DNA from: Streptomyces sp. PCS3-D2 | GTDB taxonomy: Bacteria > Actinomycetota > Actinomycetes > Streptomycetales > Streptomycetaceae | NCBI RefSeq assembly: GCF_000612545.2 | Contig: NZ_CP097800.1 | Coordinates: forward strand, 5,158,501-5,222,500 | Direction: 5' to 3' | Length of the DNA: 64,000 nt | In this document: positions 1,643-11,105 of the stretch, piece by piece | Layout of the letters: every line of letters begins with the position of its first letter | How positions within the stretch are numbered: position 1 is the stretch's first letter | Position numbers and translations under genes: made by a program | Notes under the pieces: generated by a model | The model's input: only the letters and a program-made list of their open reading frames with translations | Told to the model about the DNA's origin: nothing | Database searches by the model: none

Positions 1643-1715
1643 TCCCCTGTAGCTCAATTGGCAGAGCAGCCGGCTGTTAACCGGCAGGTTACTGGTTCGA
1701 GTCCAGTCGGGGGAG
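1643..1715 (+). tRNA. tRNA-Asn (anticodon GTT)
   Basis: A 73-nt cloverleaf folds with a 7-bp acceptor stem TCCCCTG/CGGGGGA, a GCCGG/CCGGC anticodon stem and loop CTGTTAA presenting GTT, and the standard GGTTCGAGTCC T arm. Discriminator base is G. The 3' CCA is not encoded. It is the first of two nearly identical copies five bases apart. Confidence 0.97.
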
Positions 1716-1720
1716 CGCAG

Positions 1721-1793
1721 TCCCCTGTAGCTCAATTGGCAGAGCATTCGGCTGTTAACCGGAGGGTTGCTGGTTCGAGTCCAGCCGGGGGAG
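1721..1793 (+). tRNA. tRNA-Asn (anticodon GTT), second tandem copy
   Basis: Nearly identical to the copy just upstream, differing mainly in the anticodon stem (TTCGG/CCGGA) and the T-stem. The loop again presents GTT. The very short spacer and the single downstream terminator indicate co-transcription of the two tRNAs. Confidence 0.97.
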
Positions 1794-1800
1794 CAGGAAG

Positions 1801-1834
1801 AGAAGAGGGCCCTAAGGGGCCCTCTTCTTTCTTT
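1801..1834 (+). terminator. Rho-independent terminator of the tRNA-Asn pair
   Basis: A perfect 12-bp hairpin (arms 1801-1812 and 1817-1828, loop TAAG) is followed by TTCTTT. It begins eight bases after the second tRNA. Confidence 0.9.
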
Positions 1835-1980
1835 ATCGCCCGTCCAGGGAACCGGGCAGCCCTCGGCGCGGTCTCACTGGGCAGGCGAAGCCGATCATGC
1901 GAGGCATCCGAAGCAGGAGATCGTATGAGCGGCTATGCTGCGGCAGACGGCGCGCACAGATGTACGCGCCACGCCGTGAA

Positions 1981-2057
1981 GGGGCGGTAGCTCAGCCGGT
2001 TAGAGCAGCGGACTCATAATCCGTCGGCCGTGGGTTCGAGTCCCACCCGCCCCACCA
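1981..2057 (+). tRNA. tRNA with CAT anticodon (elongator Met or Ile2), CCA encoded; island integration site
   Basis: The cloverleaf has a 7-bp acceptor stem GGGGCGG/CCGCCCC, discriminator A, encoded CCA, and anticodon loop CTCATAA. The paired first base excludes the initiator tRNA, which has an unpaired 1-72 position. CAT could be read by elongator Met or by lysidine-modified Ile2, and I cannot decide between them by eye. Its 3' 26 bases recur as a direct repeat at 13667-13692, so this gene is the attachment site of the island to its right and has been kept intact by the insertion. Confidence 0.93.
2031..2056 (+). repeat. att core, tRNA-proximal copy (attL)
   Basis: The T-arm and acceptor end of the CAT tRNA. 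The same 26 bases occur without mismatch at 13667-13692 in the same orientation. Identity stops exactly at both edges, as expected for a tyrosine-recombinase crossover segment in a tRNA gene. Confidence 0.9.
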
Positions 2058-2617: not shown

Positions 2618-2815
2618 GTGAAGCGAAGAGACCTCATGAAACGGCTGAAGCAGATCGCAGCTGAGAAGGAGGTTGACTTCACGGGGCCGGAAGGTAGCGG
2701 ACGCGGTCGGCACGAGACGTACAGGATCGGCGCCGTCAAGGTCCATGTCCCCCGGCACTCCGAGATCGCGGAGGGCACTGCCGCATCGATCATCCGGACG
2801 GCCGAGGGGGCGTGA
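2618..2815 (+). CDS. hicA: HicA-type mRNA interferase toxin
   Basis: 65 residues with the HicA double-stranded-RNA-binding-like fold pattern: an N-terminal KRRDLMKRLKQI helix, a G-x-G-R-H segment placing the catalytic histidine at about residue 32, then VKVHVPRHSEIAEGTAASII, the characteristic end of the family. HicA cleaves mRNA when its antitoxin is lost. Start GTG is chosen because it lies exactly where a leaderless transcript from the upstream promoter would begin. hicB follows after 67 bp on the same strand. Confidence 0.85.
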   Translation: MKRRDLMKRLKQIAAEKEVDFTGPEGSGRGRHETYRIGAVKVHVPRHSEIAEGTAASIIRTAEGA

Positions 2816-2882
2816 GTTCCCTCGGCCGTCCGGGCCAACCGTCTCCATATCATCGAACTGAGCGGAAAAAGGGGCGCACTGA

Positions 2883-3311
2883 ATGACCACGCACAAGGCA
2901 ACAGCAGAGCGTCAGGGACGCTTCTGGGTCGTGACCATCGACGGCCTTCCAAAGGGAGAGCAGAACGTCACGCAGGGCCTGACCTGGACCGAGGCGCACG
3001 AGAACGCACGAGATCTGGTCAGCCTCGTTCTGGACATCGAGGACGATCCGGTCGTCTACACCGTCGACCTGATCCCGGCCGACCCTGCGATGTTCGAGGT
3101 CGTGCGGGAGGCTGAAGAGGCCGACGCTGCCGTACAGGAGGCGGAGACCCGCCGCCGCGCCGCAATGACACGAGCAGCAAAGACACTCGTCGGCCTTGGG
3201 CTGACGCAGGCCGAGGCTGGTCGCATGCTCGGCGTCACACACCAGCGGATTGCACAGCTCGCGCCCAAGGCGTCGAGCAAGGGCGTCAAGAAGAAGACCG
3301 TTGCCGCTTGA
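2883..3311 (+). CDS. hicB: HicB-type antitoxin with C-terminal helix-turn-helix
   Basis: 142 residues. The N-terminal half (GRFWVVTIDGLP...TWTEAHENARDLVSLVLDI) is the degraded RNase H-like fold of HicB that covers HicA. The C-terminal part (TLVGLGLTQAEAGRMLGV) is a helix-turn-helix that should bind the operator in front of hicA. The basic tail ends KKKTVAA. Together with hicA it forms a complete type II module, commonly an addiction or phage-defence unit on mobile DNA. Confidence 0.85.
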   Translation: MTTHKATAERQGRFWVVTIDGLPKGEQNVTQGLTWTEAHENARDLVSLVLDIEDDPVVYTVDLIPADPAMFEVVREAEEADAAVQEAETRRRAAMTRAAKTLVGLGLTQAEAGRMLGVTHQRIAQLAPKASSKGVKKKTVAA

Positions 3312-3709
3312 CTGGCAGGACGTGAGAGGTGGTTCTGCTGGCATATCCGACTCGCCGCTTGGCTGACGAGTTCGACTGGCTTATTCGGTATGCATCGGCC
3401 CGTCGGTGGTCGTACGGCTCTCGGGGACGCACGCATGCGACTTCATGCAGTTGCCAGCAGGGCTCTCTTGTGGAGCCCGACGACTCCGCTTCGACTTCGC
3501 CCACTTCGCGCCCCCACCACGGAGCAGCTCACCGCCATCGAGCAGGCCGTCAGAGGCCACGAGCCCTTGATGCCCCGCCGTCCGAGTTGAGGCCGAAGCC
3601 GCCAGAGCTATCGCCCTGTTCGGTGAGCAACAAGGTGAGCAGGTCTGCGTCGTGGACGTGGATTCATCAGCCCTATCGCGGCGGTCGCGTGGGGTGAGAG
3701 GAGTTGCCC
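3312..3709. other. Non-coding or decayed stretch between hicB and the NLR pair
   Basis: No intact gene seen. One short plus-strand frame (about 3329-3450, ...WLIRYASARRWSYGSRGRTHA) followed by a different frame (…TTEQLTAIEQAVRGHE) could be the two halves of a frameshifted small ORF, but this is weak. The last bases hold GAGAGGAG, the ribosome-binding site of the next gene. Confidence 0.35.
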
Positions 3710-4063
3710 ATGTCGCAGGGATGGAAGATCACGGTCATCGTGGTGGCGGCGGCCGGAGTCCTCTCCACGCCGCTGATCTGGCTGCTGAACAGCCCCGATG
3801 CGGGACAGCTGACGGGGGCCTCTATCCAGGCCGCCGTAGGCATCGCAGCCTTGGTCTGGGCGCTGCTCCAACCCGGAGGCAACCACACGGATGACACCGC
3901 GGTGGATACCGGACAAGCCCGGGCGAGTGGTGGGGGCACGGCCGTGACGGGTGTTCGGCGACCGAAGGGACGGGGCAGTGGGTCCGCGAAGGCGGAAGGT
4001 ACGGGGAATGCCACCGCCACGGGCAATGACAGCAGCGCCATCAGTGGTATCGACTACAGCTGA
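3710..4063 (+). CDS. Small two-helix membrane protein with DTGxAxA repeats; partner of the NLR
   Basis: 117 residues from the ATG six bases after GAGAGGAG; a TTG two codons earlier is a poorer start. Residues about 7-28 (WKITVIVVAAAGVLSTPLIWLL) and 38-55 are hydrophobic helices. The polar C-terminal half carries two repeats, DTGQARASGGGTAVTGVRRP and a shorter GTGNATATG...SGIDYS. The same motif occurs twice at the N-terminus of the next protein. The stop lies 36 bp before the NLR start, so the two are probably co-transcribed. Inference: a membrane-targeting effector or anchor recruited by the NLR through motif-motif contact. No family is recognised for the membrane domain. Confidence 0.75.
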   Translation: MSQGWKITVIVVAAAGVLSTPLIWLLNSPDAGQLTGASIQAAVGIAALVWALLQPGGNHTDDTAVDTGQARASGGGTAVTGVRRPKGRGSGSAKAEGTGNATATGNDSSAISGIDYS

Positions 4064-4099
4064 CAGACCAGCTGGGCCGCGGAAAGAGGGAACGGTCGC

Positions 4100-7084
4100 G
4101 TGACCACTGGGGGCAAGCGCGCAGAGGACCCCATCGGAGCCGCAGATACGCACGTGGTGGTTACCGATACGGGGAACGCCACGGCTGCGGCTGGCGCCAT
4201 GGCGGTGACCGGCTACCGAGGGCCGACGCCAGGGGCGGACGGCATCCCGACTGATCCGATATGGGTATCCGACACAGGGGACGCGCAGGCTGCTGAGGGC
4301 GGTTTCGCAAATAGTGGCTACATCTACCAGGTGAGTGCCGGCCATTTGACCATGGTGCAGCAGCGCGCGCCCCGCGAGCCGGCCTCTTGGCCGCACCAGG
4401 TGGGCGTGCTCCCTTCCCGCGCTCACTCCTTCCAATACCGTGCCGAGTCCGACCAGCTGCGGGCGGTGGTCGCCAACGGTGGCACGGCTGTGCTGGGGCA
4501 GGTGCTCACCGGTATGGGAGGGGTAGGCAAGACCCAGCTCGCCGCCGATTACGCTCGCACCGCATGGCAGGACGGCAGCCTGGACGTCCTGGTCTGGGTC
4601 ACCGCGAGCGCCCGCTCGTCCGTCGTGACCGGATACGCGCAGGCCGGCGTCGAACTGTGCAGGGCCGACCCCGATGACCCAGAAGGGGCTGCGCAGACGT
4701 TTCTGGCGTGGCTGACACCGAAAGCCGGGGCGACGCCATGCCGGTGGATGATCGTCCTGGACGACGTAGCTGACCCGAATGACCTACGCGACTTGTGGCC
4801 GCAGGCCAGCCCTCACGGCCGCCTCCTGGTTACAACCCGCCGTCGTGACGCAGCCCTGGCTGGAGACGGCCGTCACCTCATCCATGTCGGCCTGTTCACT
4901 GAAGCGCAGGCAGTTGCCTACTTGGTCCGGTCTCTATCCGTCTGTGGCCGACAAGAACCCGTTGAACAGCTCACGGCCTTGGCACGTGATCTCGGACTTC
5001 TCCCTCTTGCCCTGGCCCAGGCCGCCGCGTACCTCATCGACACTGGCCTCGGCTGTGCCGCATACCGTGCGCTCCTGGCCAATCGGGCAACCAACCTCGC
5101 GGATACCGCCCCTGACGCTTTGCCCGATGACCACGCTGCCCCCGTCAGCGCCGCATGGTCGCTGTCCATCGACCGTGCCGATACGCTCCGCCCCATAGCT
5201 CTTGCCCGACCTATGCTTCACTTGGTGGCCATGCTCGGGACAGACGGCATTCCCGGCAGCGTCCTGACTGGTCCACCGGCCATCGCCTATCTCGCCCAAC
5301 ACCGCACCACCGGGCAAGAAGGCACCACAGAGTCTCCAGGAAGTGTGTCGGCTCAGGACGCGATCCTCGTCCTCAGAGCTCTGCACCGGCTCAGCCTGAT
5401 CGAGCATGTTCCTCAGACACCACATCAAGCTGTCCGCGCCCACCAGTTGATCCAACGCGCCGTTCGTGATGATCTCACTCGCGAACAACACGCTCAGGCC
5501 GCAAGAGCAGCCGCTGATGCGCTGGTATCGGCGTGGCTCGGCGTGCCCCGTGATATTCGGCTTGAGGAATCCCTGCGAGCCAGCAGCAAGGCGCTGAGCC
5601 AGTGCGCCGAAGAGGCTCTCTTTTACCGCGATGCACACGACGTATTGTTCCGGGTCGGGAGGAGTCTTGGAGAGACCGGCCAGGTAAGGGCTGCCCGCGA
5701 CTACTTCGAGCACCTCGTTCAGACCGTCACCGGTCGTCTGGGCCCCGATCACCGCAGCACCCTGGCCGCCAGGGGCAACCAGGCCCAGTGGCAAGGACAG
5801 GCCGGCGATGCCGCGGGCGCCGCAGACGCCTTCCGGCAACTAATGGAGCAGATGTTGCAGTCCATCGGTGCCGACCACCCATACACCCTAACCTCCCGTG
5901 ATCACCTCGCCATGTTTCAAGGGGCGGCAGGGGACGCGGCTGGCGCCGTTGCTGTGGCAGAAGCTCTCCTCCAGGACCGGCTGCGCGTGCAGGGGCCGGA
6001 CCACCCTCATACCCTCACGACACGCGGTGCCCTCGCTCACTGGAAGGGTGAAGCCGGAAATCCGGCTGGCGCGGCAGACGCTCTTGAATCCCTATTGAAG
6101 GACCAACTGCGCCTTTTCGGCCCAGACGACCCAGACACTCTGGCCACACGCGGCGCCCTCGCGCACTCTTGGGGCTTGGCGGGGGACCCAGCTAGAGCTG
6201 CAGATGACATGGAGCAGCTGCTTCAGCACATGCTGCGAGTCTTTGGAGCTGATCACCCCGAATTCATGGCTGCCACTTACAACTTGGCGCACTGGAGAGG
6301 TGAAGCGGGCGACCCTGCTGGCGCTGCAGAAGCCATTGAGCAATCGCTAGGGCAGACGCTGCGAGTGCTGGGCCCCGACCACCCGTCGACGCTCATCGCC
6401 CGAGGCGTGATGGCCAATTGGAAGGGGCAGATAGCGGATCCAGCAGCCGCCGCAGACGACTTGGAGAATCTGCTCGATCACATGCTTCGGGTACTGGGCA
6501 AAGACCACCCCCACACGCTTACTTGCCGAGGCAATCTTGCCTTCATGCGGAGTCTGGCGGGAGACCTGCACGCTGCTGTGGATGCCCTGGAAAAGCTACT
6601 CGAAGATCAGCTTCGTACTATTGGCCCTGCCCACCCTTCCACACTCACTTGTCGCAACAACCTCGCTAGATGGAGAGGGCAAGCCGGGGATCCAGTCAGC
6701 GCAGTCGCTGCTCTTGAGCTGTTGCTGGAGGACAGGCTGCGAATCCTGGGACCGGACCACCCCGACCTATTGATCACTCGCCACGATCTCGCCGTCATGC
6801 AAGGACTGGCAGGGGAGCCGGCCAGTGCAGTCGCTGCTCTTGAGGTGTTGCTGGAGGAAAGACTGCGAATCCTGGGACCGGACCACCCTGACCCATTGAC
6901 CACTCGTCACGATCTCGCGGTTATGCAAGGACTGGCAGGAAATCCAACCGCCGCAGTGGACGCTCTCGTAAGGTTGCTGAAGGATGAGGCACGGATCCTT
7001 GGCCCCGATCATCCTGACACCCAGACAGTTCAGTACAGCTTGGAACAGTGGCGCAGGATGGCGAAACAGCGGCCCTTGGGATGA
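4100..7084 (+). CDS. NB-ARC/TPR STAND ATPase (bacterial NLR-like protein)
   Basis: 994 residues from GTG. Residues 23-42 and 58-77 are two DTGxAxA...G repeats (DTGNATAAAGAMAVTGYRGP; DTGDAQAAEGGFANSGYIYQ). The NB-ARC ATPase follows: Walker A GMGGVGKTQ (about 138-146), Walker B MIVLDDV (217-223), a sensor GRLLVTTRR (240-248) and a GLLPLALAQ motif (near 300). From about residue 516 to the end are eleven kinesin-light-chain-type TPRs of 42 residues, each with a G-P-D-H-P-type signature. This is the classic tripartite STAND design: TPR sensor, ATPase switch, N-terminal signalling module. Such proteins often act in phage defence; that role is inferred from architecture and island context. Confidence 0.88.
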   Translation: MTTGGKRAEDPIGAADTHVVVTDTGNATAAAGAMAVTGYRGPTPGADGIPTDPIWVSDTGDAQAAEGGFANSGYIYQVSAGHLTMVQQRAPREPASWPHQVGVLPSRAHSFQYRAESDQLRAVVANGGTAVLGQVLTGMGGVGKTQLAADYARTAWQDGSLDVLVWVTASARSSVVTGYAQAGVELCRADPDDPEGAAQTFLAWLTPKAGATPCRWMIVLDDVADPNDLRDLWPQASPHGRLLVTTRRRDAALAGDGRHLIHVGLFTEAQAVAYLVRSLSVCGRQEPVEQLTALARDLGLLPLALAQAAAYLIDTGLGCAAYRALLANRATNLADTAPDALPDDHAAPVSAAWSLSIDRADTLRPIALARPMLHLVAMLGTDGIPGSVLTGPPAIAYLAQHRTTGQEGTTESPGSVSAQDAILVLRALHRLSLIEHVPQTPHQAVRAHQLIQRAVRDDLTREQHAQAARAAADALVSAWLGVPRDIRLEESLRASSKALSQCAEEALFYRDAHDVLFRVGRSLGETGQVRAARDYFEHLVQTVTGRLGPDHRSTLAARGNQAQWQGQAGDAAGAADAFRQLMEQMLQSIGADHPYTLTSRDHLAMFQGAAGDAAGAVAVAEALLQDRLRVQGPDHPHTLTTRGALAHWKGEAGNPAGAADALESLLKDQLRLFGPDDPDTLATRGALAHSWGLAGDPARAADDMEQLLQHMLRVFGADHPEFMAATYNLAHWRGEAGDPAGAAEAIEQSLGQTLRVLGPDHPSTLIARGVMANWKGQIADPAAAADDLENLLDHMLRVLGKDHPHTLTCRGNLAFMRSLAGDLHAAVDALEKLLEDQLRTIGPAHPSTLTCRNNLARWRGQAGDPVSAVAALELLLEDRLRILGPDHPDLLITRHDLAVMQGLAGEPASAVAALEVLLEERLRILGPDHPDPLTTRHDLAVMQGLAGNPTAAVDALVRLLKDEARILGPDHPDTQTVQYSLEQWRRMAKQRPLG
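6702..6953 (+). repeat. Recently duplicated 126-bp TPR unit
   Basis: Bases 6702-6827 and 6828-6953 are direct repeats with only about a dozen differences, while other TPR units of the gene are much more diverged. Each encodes one 42-residue TPR, so the sensor domain has recently gained a unit. Confidence 0.8.
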
Positions 7085-7487: not shown

Positions 7488-8129
7488 TCAGTTGTCTGAG
7501 TGCTCAGGATCGGCGGCCTGCGCCTCGGCGAAGGTGCCGTAGTCGGTGGAGTGGTTGAGTAGGGTGAAGTCCATGTCGCCGGCGGTGAATCGGCTGGTGT
7601 AGTAGTGCCCGGTAGCGGCCTTGGGCCTGAGGCCGGTCACTGCTATGCGGCAGGCCCCTTCGTGCCGTGGGCTCCGGTTCTGATGCTCCACGCGGGGCGT
7701 GTTGTCGTATAGGAAACCGATCTCGGCAGATCCGGAGTTCTCGGGCGCCCCGACGGTGGCGTTGCTCGACCGCGAGGTGCTCTCCTTCGTGCGGAGCGTC
7801 GCGTGCAAGCTCCAGTACGTCTGCTCGATCGTCATGTACGTGGTGATCGGGCCCCGGTTTCCCCCCTCGGGGATGTGGCTTTCCGGACTTGGGGAGAGGA
7901 TCACGCGCCAGGTACCAGTGACCCAGGGGCGGCCGGTGAGGCGGTGGATGACAGGCCAGTGCCAGGCCCACTTGTCGAAGACGAGTACGCCGTAGCCGAC
8001 GACGGCCGGGATGTACGCGAAGAGGTACCGGAACTCGGACGGGTACAGGCCCAGTACGACCAGTACGACCGTGTAGAGGGTGGCAGCGATGGTGGCGCCG
8101 GTGCGGATGGTGGTCGCTGTGTTCATCAT
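7488..8129 (-). CDS. Cap15-like CBASS effector (two TM helices plus beta-barrel domain)
   Basis: 213 residues. Two N-terminal transmembrane helices (TIAATLYTVVLVVLGLY; YLFAYIPAVVGYGVLVF) are followed by a soluble domain that starts VTGTWRV and contains QTYWSLHATL, FLYDNTP, RHEGACRIAV and GHYYTSRFTAGDM. This order matches Cap15, the membrane effector whose beta-barrel binds the cyclic nucleotide and triggers inner-membrane disruption. The start ATG overlaps the stop of the CD-NTase gene (TGATG), so translation is coupled. The symbol cap15 is withheld because the call rests on motif reading alone. Confidence 0.8.
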   Translation of the reverse strand: MMNTATTIRTGATIAATLYTVVLVVLGLYPSEFRYLFAYIPAVVGYGVLVFDKWAWHWPVIHRLTGRPWVTGTWRVILSPSPESHIPEGGNRGPITTYMTIEQTYWSLHATLRTKESTSRSSNATVGAPENSGSAEIGFLYDNTPRVEHQNRSPRHEGACRIAVTGLRPKAATGHYYTSRFTAGDMDFTLLNHSTDYGTFAEAQAADPEHSDN

Positions 8130-9031
8130 CAGCTCCCGTAGCCGAGGTAGTGCCAGGCGCCCTCGATTAGCTCGCGTGCGTCCTTCGTGTCCCACTTCTG
8201 GCCTTCGCCGAAGACCTTCTTCACGCCGTTCGGCTCCATCATGCCCTGAGCGCCGAACCAGGTGCTCGTAAGCTGGCGGTGTACTTCCCGCAGGCTCGCC
8301 TGGATGGCGTCGTCGAAGCCGCCGTTGAGGAAGGCGTGGTCTGGCACGTTGTAGATCAGGCACTCCGAGAAGTACGACGGCAGTGCCTTGATCACCCCCT
8401 GAGCCGCAAGGTCGTTCTCGACGTTCTTCAGAACTCGGACGACGAACTTGTACCGCAGCTTGGTGTTGGTGTTCTTCGTACGACCGTTGGTCAGCTGGAG
8501 CTCGGGCCAGTTGACGATCTTCTTGCCGTCGCGTCCGTAGACGACACTCCCCTCGTAGTGCCCGCCGACGGCGGTGCTGTCGTAGAGGACGTACTTGAAG
8601 CACGGGACGACGTCGGTGCTGGGGCGGCTGCCGGCGACCTCCGGCACGTTGAAGGCGATGTTGTGGTCCGTGTCGATGGCACCGAAGTGCTGGACAAGCG
8701 CCTGTTCCACCTCAGCCCGGAGCTTCTCCGGCGTCCATTGCCCCGAATACCGGTCGGGCTTGGCGAGCCATGAAGCACCGTCGTAGAAGAAGCACTCGTT
8801 CATCTGCACCTTGATGTCCACGTCGCTGTCGCTGCGGACGTTGGTGTTGTTGGGGTATGAGCCCTTCGGGTCGACCGTGATCGCGAGCCCCTGGAAGGGC
8901 GCGTACCGGGCGATCGCGTCGCGCACCATGCGTTCCGCACGATCCAGCCGGAGCTTCTCGGACGGACCCGGCGGGTTCTTCCACTTGTTGAGCAGAGCTA
9001 TCCGCTGCTCGTATGTCAGCTGGTGTGCCAT
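8129..9031 (-). CDS. CBASS CD-NTase (cGAS/DncV-like nucleotidyltransferase)
   Basis: 300 residues, the usual CD-NTase length. The active site is intact: G57-S58 in PKGSYPNNTNVRSDSDVD, metal-binding aspartates D70 and D72, and a third aspartate at D140 (SRPSTDVVP). The enzyme makes a cyclic di- or trinucleotide on phage infection to activate the adjacent effector. The ATG is preceded by AGGGAGG at good spacing; a longer frame upstream lacks any match. With the Cap15-like gene it forms a minimal two-gene (type I) CBASS. The clade and product cannot be told by eye. Confidence 0.88.
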   Translation of the reverse strand: MAHQLTYEQRIALLNKWKNPPGPSEKLRLDRAERMVRDAIARYAPFQGLAITVDPKGSYPNNTNVRSDSDVDIKVQMNECFFYDGASWLAKPDRYSGQWTPEKLRAEVEQALVQHFGAIDTDHNIAFNVPEVAGSRPSTDVVPCFKYVLYDSTAVGGHYEGSVVYGRDGKKIVNWPELQLTNGRTKNTNTKLRYKFVVRVLKNVENDLAAQGVIKALPSYFSECLIYNVPDHAFLNGGFDDAIQASLREVHRQLTSTWFGAQGMMEPNGVKKVFGEGQKWDTKDARELIEGAWHYLGYGS

Positions 9032-9356
9032 GAAGCCCTCCCTGCACCCGATGCACCGATGACAGCCTATGAGCCGGGTCCGACAATCCGGCCTCACAGC
9101 GCAGATGGACTGGAGCTGTATCCCGTGTCGCCGATGACGTGTTCGGGCCTGGTCCTCGACTGGCCGGCCCAAGGAGGGGGCGCCAGGATCGCATCCAGCC
9201 CGCAATGATCTGGGTGCAGTCGCGGGTGTTCCCTCGTCAGCACGAAGGCGAGCGCGGCCGGACTTGTCGCAGGCAGTTGGCCGGTCTGCCTCGGGATAGG
9301 TCGAGGAAAGATGCCACACGCGACGGTCGTGCAATTGAAAATCTTACGGTTGTCGT
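9032..9356. other. Intergenic region upstream of the CBASS operon
   Basis: About 325 bp with no gene. It must carry the CBASS promoter on the minus strand; a TAGGCT at about 9066-9071 is a possible -10 box, but no good -35 box is evident. The ribosome-binding site of the CD-NTase lies at the left edge. Confidence 0.4.
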
Positions 9357-11105
9357 CTAATCACCCTCCGGGCTCCAGTACGTACTATTCATCCTTGAAT
9401 CGGGACGCAGTGGCGGGTGCTGAAGCCTAATTTCAGTGTTCTCCATACGCCAGTCTTCGATCCCTTCGCGGGCTTGATTAAGCGCCTCGCACTGCTCGGC
9501 GGAGAGGTAGAAACTTACGGCGTCAACCGATTTCCAGAGTCGGTTGACGCGCTCCAGGTCAGGTGGACGTTGCGCGGAAAGCGCGAGGTAGGCAGTCACG
9601 GCTGCATTTACCTCACTCTGCAGTACGCGCGGATGCAGCTTCGGCAAGATGTCGATACCGCCATCGGCGCTATAAACCACCACAATGGCTGGCGGGTGTT
9701 CACTACCGAGATAGCGCACGGCGTTGTTGAACCTACTGCCGCGAGCTGGATCACCTTCACCCCTGGCCGAACCGTCAAGAATGACTCCGATTGCATGGCA
9801 ACGTCCTTGAGGGTCAAGGAGGACGGCACCATCCATGTCGGTGAGCTGGGTGAGGAAGTTATCGGATAGCAGGGTGGGCTCGACTGCCCATGATTGAGGA
9901 GAAAGCCTACGCGATTCACCTTTCGCGTCGGCGGAAATTACAAGCATCGCCCCATGACGGTGCTTTCCGATTGCTTGTGCTGCCTGTGTCAAGGCGTCAT
10001 CGTCTGGCTCGGAGAAGAGTCGATCCGAGAGGTCGCGAAAATAGCTCTCATCGAGCACGTGTTTGGGCAGGCTAGTGATTCCGTCTCGGGCAGCGAGAAG
10101 CGCCGTGCCGGCGTGGGAAAGTTCCCAATATCCGCGCCTCAAGAACGTGACAACAAACACCGAATCGGAAGCAGGGTCGTAGTTCGGCCGTACGGTTCCG
10201 AGGCCGTAGACAAATTCACCGTTAGATAGCACGTCGGCGGTTGGACCGCTTCCCTCAAGAAGCTTGCGGACTGCTGGCGTATTGCGGTTCTTGACGGGCG
10301 CCGCTAGCTTCAAATTCACCTCAACGGCCGGATCTTCTGCTCTCGCCAAGACCAAGCGCCCAGCGCCCTCGCGCCCTTCGTAGGGCAAGGATGACAGCTG
10401 ATTCATCAGCAAGTGAAAGTCGCTGGCAAACCAATATCCGGCGCAGTAGATCATGGTGCGCAGCATGTGCTCTGTGGCGCTACGTACGATTTCATCCGTT
10501 GATGCACCCAAGATGCGAAGATCGGAACCGGCATCTGGTAGATAGAGAGTTCGTCGAGCTCGACCAAGGATATCCCAGATTACTGCGTGTACGAGCGATG
10601 GAACAATCGCCATTCGGTCACGCGAGGTTGTGGAAATCCGGGGCACCTCGCCAAGCCTGTCTTTTGGGATTCCGGCGACAATGTGAACTTCGTAGTCCCC
10701 GACTCTGACTGATTTGCCCACAAAGAAGGTCCAGGCTTTCTGCTCCTCCAGTGAGGAAAGTCTGTCCCCAAGCGCTTCGGCCCTCATTTCATCCATGAGC
10801 GATTCTTGATGGAGTCTGTGTCCTCTCGGGTCGGAGATAAGGAATTCACTTTCAGGGTTTTTGTTGTATTTTCTGATTGCGGTGCGCTGTACGTCAGAAA
10901 AATCTTCCGGAGTGTAGAGCTTCTCTCCCTGCTCTACGCAGATATCGAATGGGTGATCGCCGGCCACCTTGAACCCTACAAGCAGGCACCTGACTTCGGC
11001 TGGGAATCCAATATGCTCAAACGCCCGCTCGAATTCCATTTTAAGTGAAATGCGGAAGGTGTCTTGAAACCCCCACATGAACTGTTCGATGAAGCGTTTT
11101 CCCAC
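9357..11105 (-). CDS. DisA_N-like (DACN-type) predicted nucleotide-sensor protein
   Basis: 582 residues. The C-terminal third contains a diadenylate-cyclase-like fold: DGAVLLDPQGRCHAIGVIL (DGA at residues 425-427), then GSRFNNAVRYL, then AIVVVYSADGGIDILPKL. In active DisA/CdaA enzymes the second motif is GTRHR; here the RHR is replaced by R-F-N, so cyclase activity is doubtful. Related catalytically dead domains have been predicted to be nucleotide sensors (the DACN families) in prokaryotic conflict systems. The first 400 residues match nothing I recognise. Codon use is clearly less GC-rich than the neighbours, a sign of transfer. It lies upstream of the CBASS operon on the same strand. The GTG start follows GGGGAAG. 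Confidence 0.72.
   Translation of the reverse strand: MGKRFIEQFMWGFQDTFRISLKMEFERAFEHIGFPAEVRCLLVGFKVAGDHPFDICVEQGEKLYTPEDFSDVQRTAIRKYNKNPESEFLISDPRGHRLHQESLMDEMRAEALGDRLSSLEEQKAWTFFVGKSVRVGDYEVHIVAGIPKDRLGEVPRISTTSRDRMAIVPSLVHAVIWDILGRARRTLYLPDAGSDLRILGASTDEIVRSATEHMLRTMIYCAGYWFASDFHLLMNQLSSLPYEGREGAGRLVLARAEDPAVEVNLKLAAPVKNRNTPAVRKLLEGSGPTADVLSNGEFVYGLGTVRPNYDPASDSVFVVTFLRRGYWELSHAGTALLAARDGITSLPKHVLDESYFRDLSDRLFSEPDDDALTQAAQAIGKHRHGAMLVISADAKGESRRLSPQSWAVEPTLLSDNFLTQLTDMDGAVLLDPQGRCHAIGVILDGSARGEGDPARGSRFNNAVRYLGSEHPPAIVVVYSADGGIDILPKLHPRVLQSEVNAAVTAYLALSAQRPPDLERVNRLWKSVDAVSFYLSAEQCEALNQAREGIEDWRMENTEIRLQHPPLRPDSRMNSTYWSPEGD

Follow-up and report, generated by a model that had tools for sequence, protein, structure and literature searches.

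Signalosomes in which a NOD-like receptor (NLR) and a Bell-domain effector share a bacterial amyloid-signalling (BASS) motif were reportedly described by Dyrka et al. in 2020, and we compare them here with a two-gene locus of Streptomyces sp. PCS3-D2 that encodes a small protein with two predicted transmembrane helices (the 2TM effector) followed by an NB-ARC/TPR receptor. The locus lies in a stretch of 64,000 nucleotides that was analysed as a whole (the window; contig NZ_CP097800.1, positions 5,158,501 to 5,222,500). According to the passages of the cited papers that bear on this comparison, BASS motifs sit at the N-terminus of NLRs and the C-terminus of Bell proteins and more rarely accompany CHAT or TIR domains, such two-gene clusters being found mainly in Actinobacteria and Cyanobacteria (PMC7889193), and occur as single, two or three copies (PMC9815663). 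In the same passages, the effectors HET-s and HELLF end in two pseudo-repeats, each about 21 aa long, and the NLR has the motif at its N-terminus, and PNT1 combines NB-ARC with TPR (PMC7889193), while the STAND (signal transduction ATPases with numerous domains) NTPase conflict systems are presented as modular NTPase-effector sets enriched in multicellular bacteria (PMC7159879, PMC8195603).

The window locus resembles the BASS/Bell NLR signalosomes of multicellular bacteria in gene adjacency, in the protein ends that bear the motif and in its actinobacterial host (PMC7889193, PMC8086366, PMC12261475, PMC9815663, in the parts concerned), and it resembles the HET-S/NWD2, HELLF and HELLP/PNT1 systems of Podospora in its pseudo-repeat doublet, NLR N-terminal motif and NB-ARC/TPR receptor. 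It differs from the former in its effector, a membrane hairpin of two helices for which no relation to the Bell-like domain was detected, from the Podospora systems in that the effector has no HeLo or HELL domain and no detected sequence relation, and from STAND systems in that a short repeat motif, and no folded domain of the Death-like or effector-associated kind, would do the coupling. The passages of PMC7159879 and PMC8195603 on effector-associated domains do not describe a 2TM effector, and a literature search whose coverage left out most subscription journals found no publication on a 2TM BASS effector or on a phage protein made of the motif only. Because CHAT and TIR domains are also paired with BASS motifs, a non-Bell effector bars the name "Bell system" and does not bar "works like a BASS pair". 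We consider it probable that the pair is a BASS-type two-gene immune signalling unit with a 2TM hairpin instead of Bell, and very likely that the receptor activates the membrane protein through the shared motif.

The 2TM effector, its receptor and their relatives

Both open reading frames (ORFs) and all four motif copies claimed in a preliminary description of the window were found (Table 1), with the effector start taken at the ATG at 3710 (the longest ORF would start at a TTG at 3704). The receptor lies downstream across a gap of 36 nt, and the effector repeats, of 20-21 aa each, are separated by a Gly/Ser/Arg-rich linker, an arrangement of two linked pseudo-repeats, each of about 21 aa, as in HET-s; several family members have shorter repeats. 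The motif profile described below scored at most 12.3 bits on the receptor N-terminus, and Smith-Waterman alignment of the effector tail with that N-terminus gave 60, against 33.9 +/- 6.0 when both were shuffled (at least 60 in 6 of 5000 shuffles). The claim that an adjacent NLR and effector share the motif in a BASS-like layout thus stands on the short gap, the N- and C-terminal placement and a score beyond chance. Against NCBIfam the receptor matched NF040586 at 422 bits.

Table 1. Coordinates of the pair, its neighbours and related features (positions in the window unless a locus handle is given)
Feature	Position	Strand	Basis
2TM effector gene, 117 aa	3710..4063	+	ORF; membrane helix hairpin and C-terminal motif doublet
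Transmembrane helix 1, residues 6-27	3725..3790	+	hydropathy; low-confidence model: helix 3-26
Transmembrane helix 2, residues 34-55	3809..3874	+	hydropathy; low-confidence model: helix 31-53
Effector motif repeat r1 DTGQARASGGGTAVTGVRRP	3905..3964	+	sequence; conserved across effector family
Effector motif repeat r2 GTGNATATGNDSSAISGIDYS	3998..4060	+	sequence; conserved across effector family
Receptor gene, 994 aa, GTG start	4100..7084	+	ORF; N-terminal motif doublet, NB-ARC, TPR repeats
Receptor motif repeat r1 DTGNATAAAGAMAVTGYRGP	4166..4225	+	sequence
Receptor motif repeat r2 DTGDAQAAEGGFANSGYIYQ	4271..4330	+	sequence
NB-ARC domain, residues 136-273, P-loop GMGGVGKT	4505..4918	+	PF00931 3.9e-10
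TPR region, about residues 514-972, presumed sensor	5639..7015	+	PF13424 and other TPR models (Pfam)
CBASS effector Cap15, neighbouring system, outside pair	7488..8129	-	PF18153 1.5e-12; PDLC00673 "2TM" effector 343 bits
CBASS CD-NTase, neighbouring system, outside pair	8129..9334	-	PDLC00794 408 bits
Non-NLR partners	L078:4677-5702, L084:6360-7394, L096:4396-5664, L100:6321-7478
Phage doublet gene	L181:3941-4159; L182, L183, L184, L189, L190, L191; L186-L188 near 6001

The effector belongs to no family of Pfam, NCBIfam or PHROGs at E <= 1, and its single PADLOC match was non-significant (E 0.14). Structure modelling of its tail gave nothing usable. Across the effector family the hairpin carries a mean of 1.7 basic residues in its first eight and 0.06 in the loop, and hydropathy and charge together favour a topology with both hairpin ends in the cytoplasm; a two-peak hydropathy rule was satisfied by 32 of the 51 effectors defined below. 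Elsewhere in the window genome, a 100-kb contig carries a second 2TM pair, and a Bell-like/NLR pair bears the same doublet ("Bell-like" being assigned here and throughout by architecture alone). Profile comparison of the hairpin with six Bell-like proteins aligned 7 columns at a probability of 2.7%, so no relation was detected, and the earlier proposal that the effector is a helix hairpin, not a Bell domain, and may be a new variant holds because the hairpin shows no relation to the Bell-like domain found beside the same motif in the same genome.

Evaluating the distribution of the family with a hairpin-only profile (A2), we found matches at E<=0.01 in 49 of 393 Streptomyces genomes, two of which (G053, G190) held weak matches only and were judged false; the named relatives, five full-length and one fragment, were all Streptomyces. 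An order-level sample gave matches in 30 of 294 genomes and one of nine genera, some of them weak, and a class-level sample in 8 of 296 genomes and 4 of 114 genera. Among the three class-level matches outside the genus G704 alone was convincing, its locus (L218) encoding an effector with the doublet and, as the next ORF, a protein that starts with a TGxAxA repeat followed by an NB-ARC-like stretch. Plasmid matches comprised 22 records (21 Streptomyces, 1 Embleya). Two effector copies near both contig ends were seen in G199:C1, G254:C1, G151:C1, G425:C1 and G470:C1, apparently in the terminal repeats of linear chromosomes. For the comparisons below we used 51 loci, taking one copy from genomes with matches at both chromosome ends and leaving out L053 and L055 (same DNA as L003 and L002), L006 (a fragment) and L101-L104 (<23 bits); the window locus is outside this set and its near-identical relative L058 inside. 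The doublet was present by eye in 49 of the 51 effectors, the ORFs of L079 and L099 stopping after r1.

Motif co-occurrence and matched swapping

The preliminary description had staked its reading on the motif recurring in neighbouring gene pairs elsewhere, and it does recur. We trained a 20-residue profile on 80 effector repeats and scored the N-terminal 150 residues encoded by the downstream gene: 38 of 51 loci reached 5 bits, compared with 0/48 and 0/41 segments from further along these proteins and with 2 of 1020 shuffled sequences. Among the 13 loci below 5 bits the motif could be seen by eye in L005, L066, L074, L084, L085, L089, L092 and L100, and in a short broken receptor ORF at L003, bringing the total to 47 of 51. 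The four remaining loci have a transposase-like neighbour (L004, L076), a broken receptor (L079) or nothing related (L098). The median gap between effector and partner was 16.5 nt over the 38 motif-positive loci, with starts chosen mechanically. Scanning all six-frame ORFs of these regions (n=6408), we obtained 63 matches at E<=1, namely 42 effectors, 15 ORFs directly downstream (one of which, at L079, is more likely the remainder of a broken effector) and 6 others: a Bell-like protein with its NLR-like neighbour in both L105 and L001, plus a single ORF with the doublet in L097, where it is Bell-like, and another in L094.

A held-out set gave a similar picture, with 14 of 18 effectors and 10 of the 18 downstream genes reaching 5 bits, 0/14 internal segments doing so, and the motif visible by eye on 15 of the 18 downstream genes. 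This set excludes four loci already used, the window (L159) and two weak, partial, motif-less matches (L178, L179), whose restoration changes the counts to 14/20 effectors and 10/20 downstream genes; L177, with an equally weak score, was retained for its nearly whole profile match and its doublet, a choice made knowing the outcome, and L180, L219 and L220 gave no usable ORF. Taken over profile, shuffles, internal segments and held-out loci, a short motif shared between NLR N-terminus and effector C-terminus exceeds chance. A match in motif length between partners was rejected by eye: several effector repeats are about four residues shorter and the repeats of their receptors are not.

Partners following the 2TM effector were mostly NB-ARC receptors. 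Others matched NACHT (L063) or AAA_16 (L089, L091), all three under Pfam curated cut-offs, and L094, with L097 similar, has an AAA_22/TPR partner. At L078, L084, L096 and L100 the partner consists of the motif, one apparent membrane helix (assigned by eye) and a presumed outer part, has no Pfam match at E<=0.01, and is possibly a membrane-anchored sensor or receptor using the same motif. As read from the sequences, one and the same motif is shared by effector domains of different kinds (the 2TM hairpin, Bell-like and a further helical one) and by partners of different kinds (NB-ARC, NACHT/AAA-like and, apparently, membrane-anchored); linking such varied effector domains to such varied partners, it would therefore act as a matched plug and socket.

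We then turned the comparison around and searched 41 genomes for the NB-ARC part of the receptor regardless of effector, which matched in 31 of the 41 genomes (57 match rows); NB-ARC loci were taken for part of these rows, and 39 entries, fragments included, were scored. The NB-ARC relatives that lack a 2TM effector (52-63% identity, two at 39%) carry no TGxAxA, and seven of them bear other N-terminal motifs, of HGPV, SSIAA or GDIxQ types, that are like the C-terminus of their own upstream effector. At L136 (60%) the receptor reads YIDFRRSTSHGPVLGKGTQNN and the preceding small helical protein HVDFRHSPLHGPVVGKGTRHN. L143 and L146 have a SIAA-type motif on the receptor and a like motif on an upstream Bell-like protein (at L146 the ORF is only the end of one), with L137 and L142 similar and weaker. 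At L144 and L145 (39%) a receptor with QSART-GDINQ/GNITQ stands beside a different, apparently two-helix protein whose ARG-type repeats end in GDVDQ/GDIDQ, and at L139 (59%) another apparently two-helix protein carries a TGxAxA variant that its receptor matches. We also saw the reverse exchange: the helical domain that forms the effector at L136 recurs in G095 (52% identity over 60 aa, E 7e-12, two-sequence comparison) and there carries TGxAxA repeats, and the ORF next to it, which appears to be a disrupted receptor, has two TGxAxA repeats.

In a 10 x 10 matrix of local alignments, a receptor of the same motif class gave the highest score for 9 of 10 effectors, the classes being assigned by eye; 42 of 100000 permutations attained the diagonal sum (p 0.0004), a test independent of the classes, and three cognate scores (38, 30, 26) were within noise. 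The matrix covers 10 of the 13 receptors inspected, those of L138, L140 and L141 being left out as having motif-like N-termini and no matching upstream gene that we could see. Matched swapping is the strongest evidence for the shared motif as the coupling element: the motif changes on both partners together and therefore behaves as a coupling code would, and we regard both the shared motif and this role as strongly supported. HGPV-type motifs (L136, L138, L140) and GDIxQ-type motifs (L144, L145, L141; like the RIP homotypic interaction motif, RHIM, by eye) were observed on NB-ARC receptors, in some cases with a match on a small effector encoded upstream, and each type may correspond to a BASS family, already described or new.

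A phage protein carrying the motif doublet

Searching 50,697 phage records with the effector (tblastn) revealed matches in four Streptomyces phages, to the motif part only (residues 66-117). With the phage protein as query the matches grew to seven records (EhyElimayoE, Satis, Kradal, Quantum, JustBecause, Kela and Frankenweenie) and three viral contigs. The protein, annotated as hypothetical in all 7 records, has 72-78 aa: its N-terminus is variable over about 18-24 residues, and the doublet that follows is conserved and ends with SGID[YW]T. It has the motif of the host but no host effector domain; dN (nonsynonymous) was below dS (synonymous divergence) in 15 of 15 comparisons among six phage doublets. 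A model of the doublet has strands at 17-22, 26-29 and 33-36 and at 48-53, 57-60 and 65-68 with a predicted local distance difference test (pLDDT) score of about 70, the Foldseek match bearing on likeness to the HET-s fold being non-significant, as were all matches in searches of solved structures with profiles of the effector and of the phage protein. Its neighbours are a gene for a membrane protein on one side and a small gene on the other, with a helicase gene nearby; the two flanking genes are carried by the same 7 records and by no others of the collection.

Against 150 Streptomyces genomes the phage protein gave 26 matches at E<=0.001 in 19 genomes, of which 25 read as system parts (14 hairpin effectors, 4 of their receptors, 3 Bell-like proteins, and 4 other effectors or partners) and one (G063) is unrelated. 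No match was found for the phage protein among plasmids at E<=0.01, for the full effector in viral contigs by pattern scan, or for three other motif classes against phages at E<=1 with one query each. To compare single repeats we built profiles by regular expression from 25 (E1) and 29 (E2) of 51 effectors and from 19 (N1) and 13 (N2) of 51 partners. Scored without composition correction, and with a receptor profile whose selection for a GP ending favours the receptor, the first phage repeat scored higher with receptor r1 than with effector r1 in 5/5 (best of the four profiles in 4/5), and the second scored highest with effector r2 in 5/5.

Viral proteins with a host amyloid signalling motif have a precedent in M45/vIRA of murine cytomegalovirus (MCMV) and ORF20 of varicella-zoster virus (VZV), which carry a RHIM (PMC7375649, in the part concerned). 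The phage protein is like these decoys in being viral and in carrying a host signalling motif; it differs in coming from tailed phages of bacteria, in its unrelated motif and in comprising little beyond the doublet, and inhibition would here be a matter of analogy. On the simplest reading a doublet without a hairpin would be a decoy or cap for the signal, and we give about even chances to a stand-alone protein that mimics both sides of the junction and, by capping the receptor or titrating away the effector, blocks immune signalling in the manner of the herpesvirus RHIM decoys. A less probable reading makes the protein a trigger detected by receptor or effector, or a phage tool against other phages that works via the host effector. 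The receptor-like first and effector-like second repeats speak for this, since a protein so built could seed the effector directly; a gene kept with dN below dS and found in 7/7 of the collection phages that carry its flanking genes would be odd for a pure liability. A decoy is the reading that we prefer over a trigger or adaptor.

Proposed mechanism, alternatives and neighbourhood

NB-ARC proteins oligomerise. In the mechanism that we propose, the receptor would sense an infection cue and oligomerise in turn, lining up its N-terminal TGxAxA repeats; the aligned repeats would act as a nucleus from which a cross-beta assembly extends to the C-terminal doublet of the effector, probably as a HET-s-like beta-solenoid with two rungs; and the membrane hairpins would then cluster and permeabilise the membrane, so that phage growth might be halted by compartment death or dormancy. 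A role in phage defence is proposed because a CBASS (cyclic-oligonucleotide-based antiphage signalling system) locus lies next door, the distribution is patchy, plasmids carry matches and phages encode a mimic of the motif.

Coupling could also be homotypic without being amyloid, the repeats forming a folded beta-rich domain or a condensate with no self-templating, as their polar, Gly/Ala/Thr-rich composition and the small beta structure modelled for the phage doublet alone would allow; a length of about 20 aa, two linked pseudo-repeats, terminal positions and co-occurrence with Bell-like proteins fit the published amyloid pairs (PMC7889193, in the passages concerned) and leave this reading unlikely. 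We think it more doubtful still that the pair is a regulatory or developmental module, for example one linked to sporulation. The receptor's NCBIfam name does come from an FxSxx-COOH peptide system, and the immune role of the pair is itself read from sequence; against such a module stand the patchy occurrence (49/393 genomes), the 22 plasmid records, the adjoining CBASS locus and the motif-bearing phage protein. That the likeness is a chance product of the Gly/Ala/Thr-rich tails of Streptomyces, in a high-GC genome of simple composition, is scarcely credible: shuffles and internal segments rarely or never score, no clearly unrelated ORF was matched among 6408, and a change of motif on one partner is mirrored on the other. 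The shuffles, the internal segments and the six-frame background led us to reject chance low complexity.

The CBASS locus directly adjoins the pair and is convergent with it; the PDLC00673 match spans residues 159-369 of a longer Cap15 ORF. Beside it, at 9357-11105 (-), are matches to DACNG, DACNH and DAC, a protein with a putative sensor and a DisA-like nucleotide-binding domain. Upstream of the effector, at 2618-3311 (+), lie two ORFs that possibly form a toxin-antitoxin pair: one is small and matches HicA, the other has helix-turn-helix matches, in both cases below threshold. Two tRNA-Asn genes and one tRNA-Met gene lie just upstream at 1643-2057 (+), placing the pair between a tRNA cluster and CBASS, and the defence genes may be part of a tRNA-linked island.

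Bacterial amyloid signalling has so far been inferred mainly from Bell-NLR pairs, to which the present family adds a membrane-hairpin effector class and non-NLR partners. The swapping between relatives is a natural experiment that points to a short motif as the specificity code, and the motif-only phage protein, being one small gene, makes the anti-phage question testable. If true, a phage decoy would extend the theme of viral decoys from animal necroptosis to bacteria.

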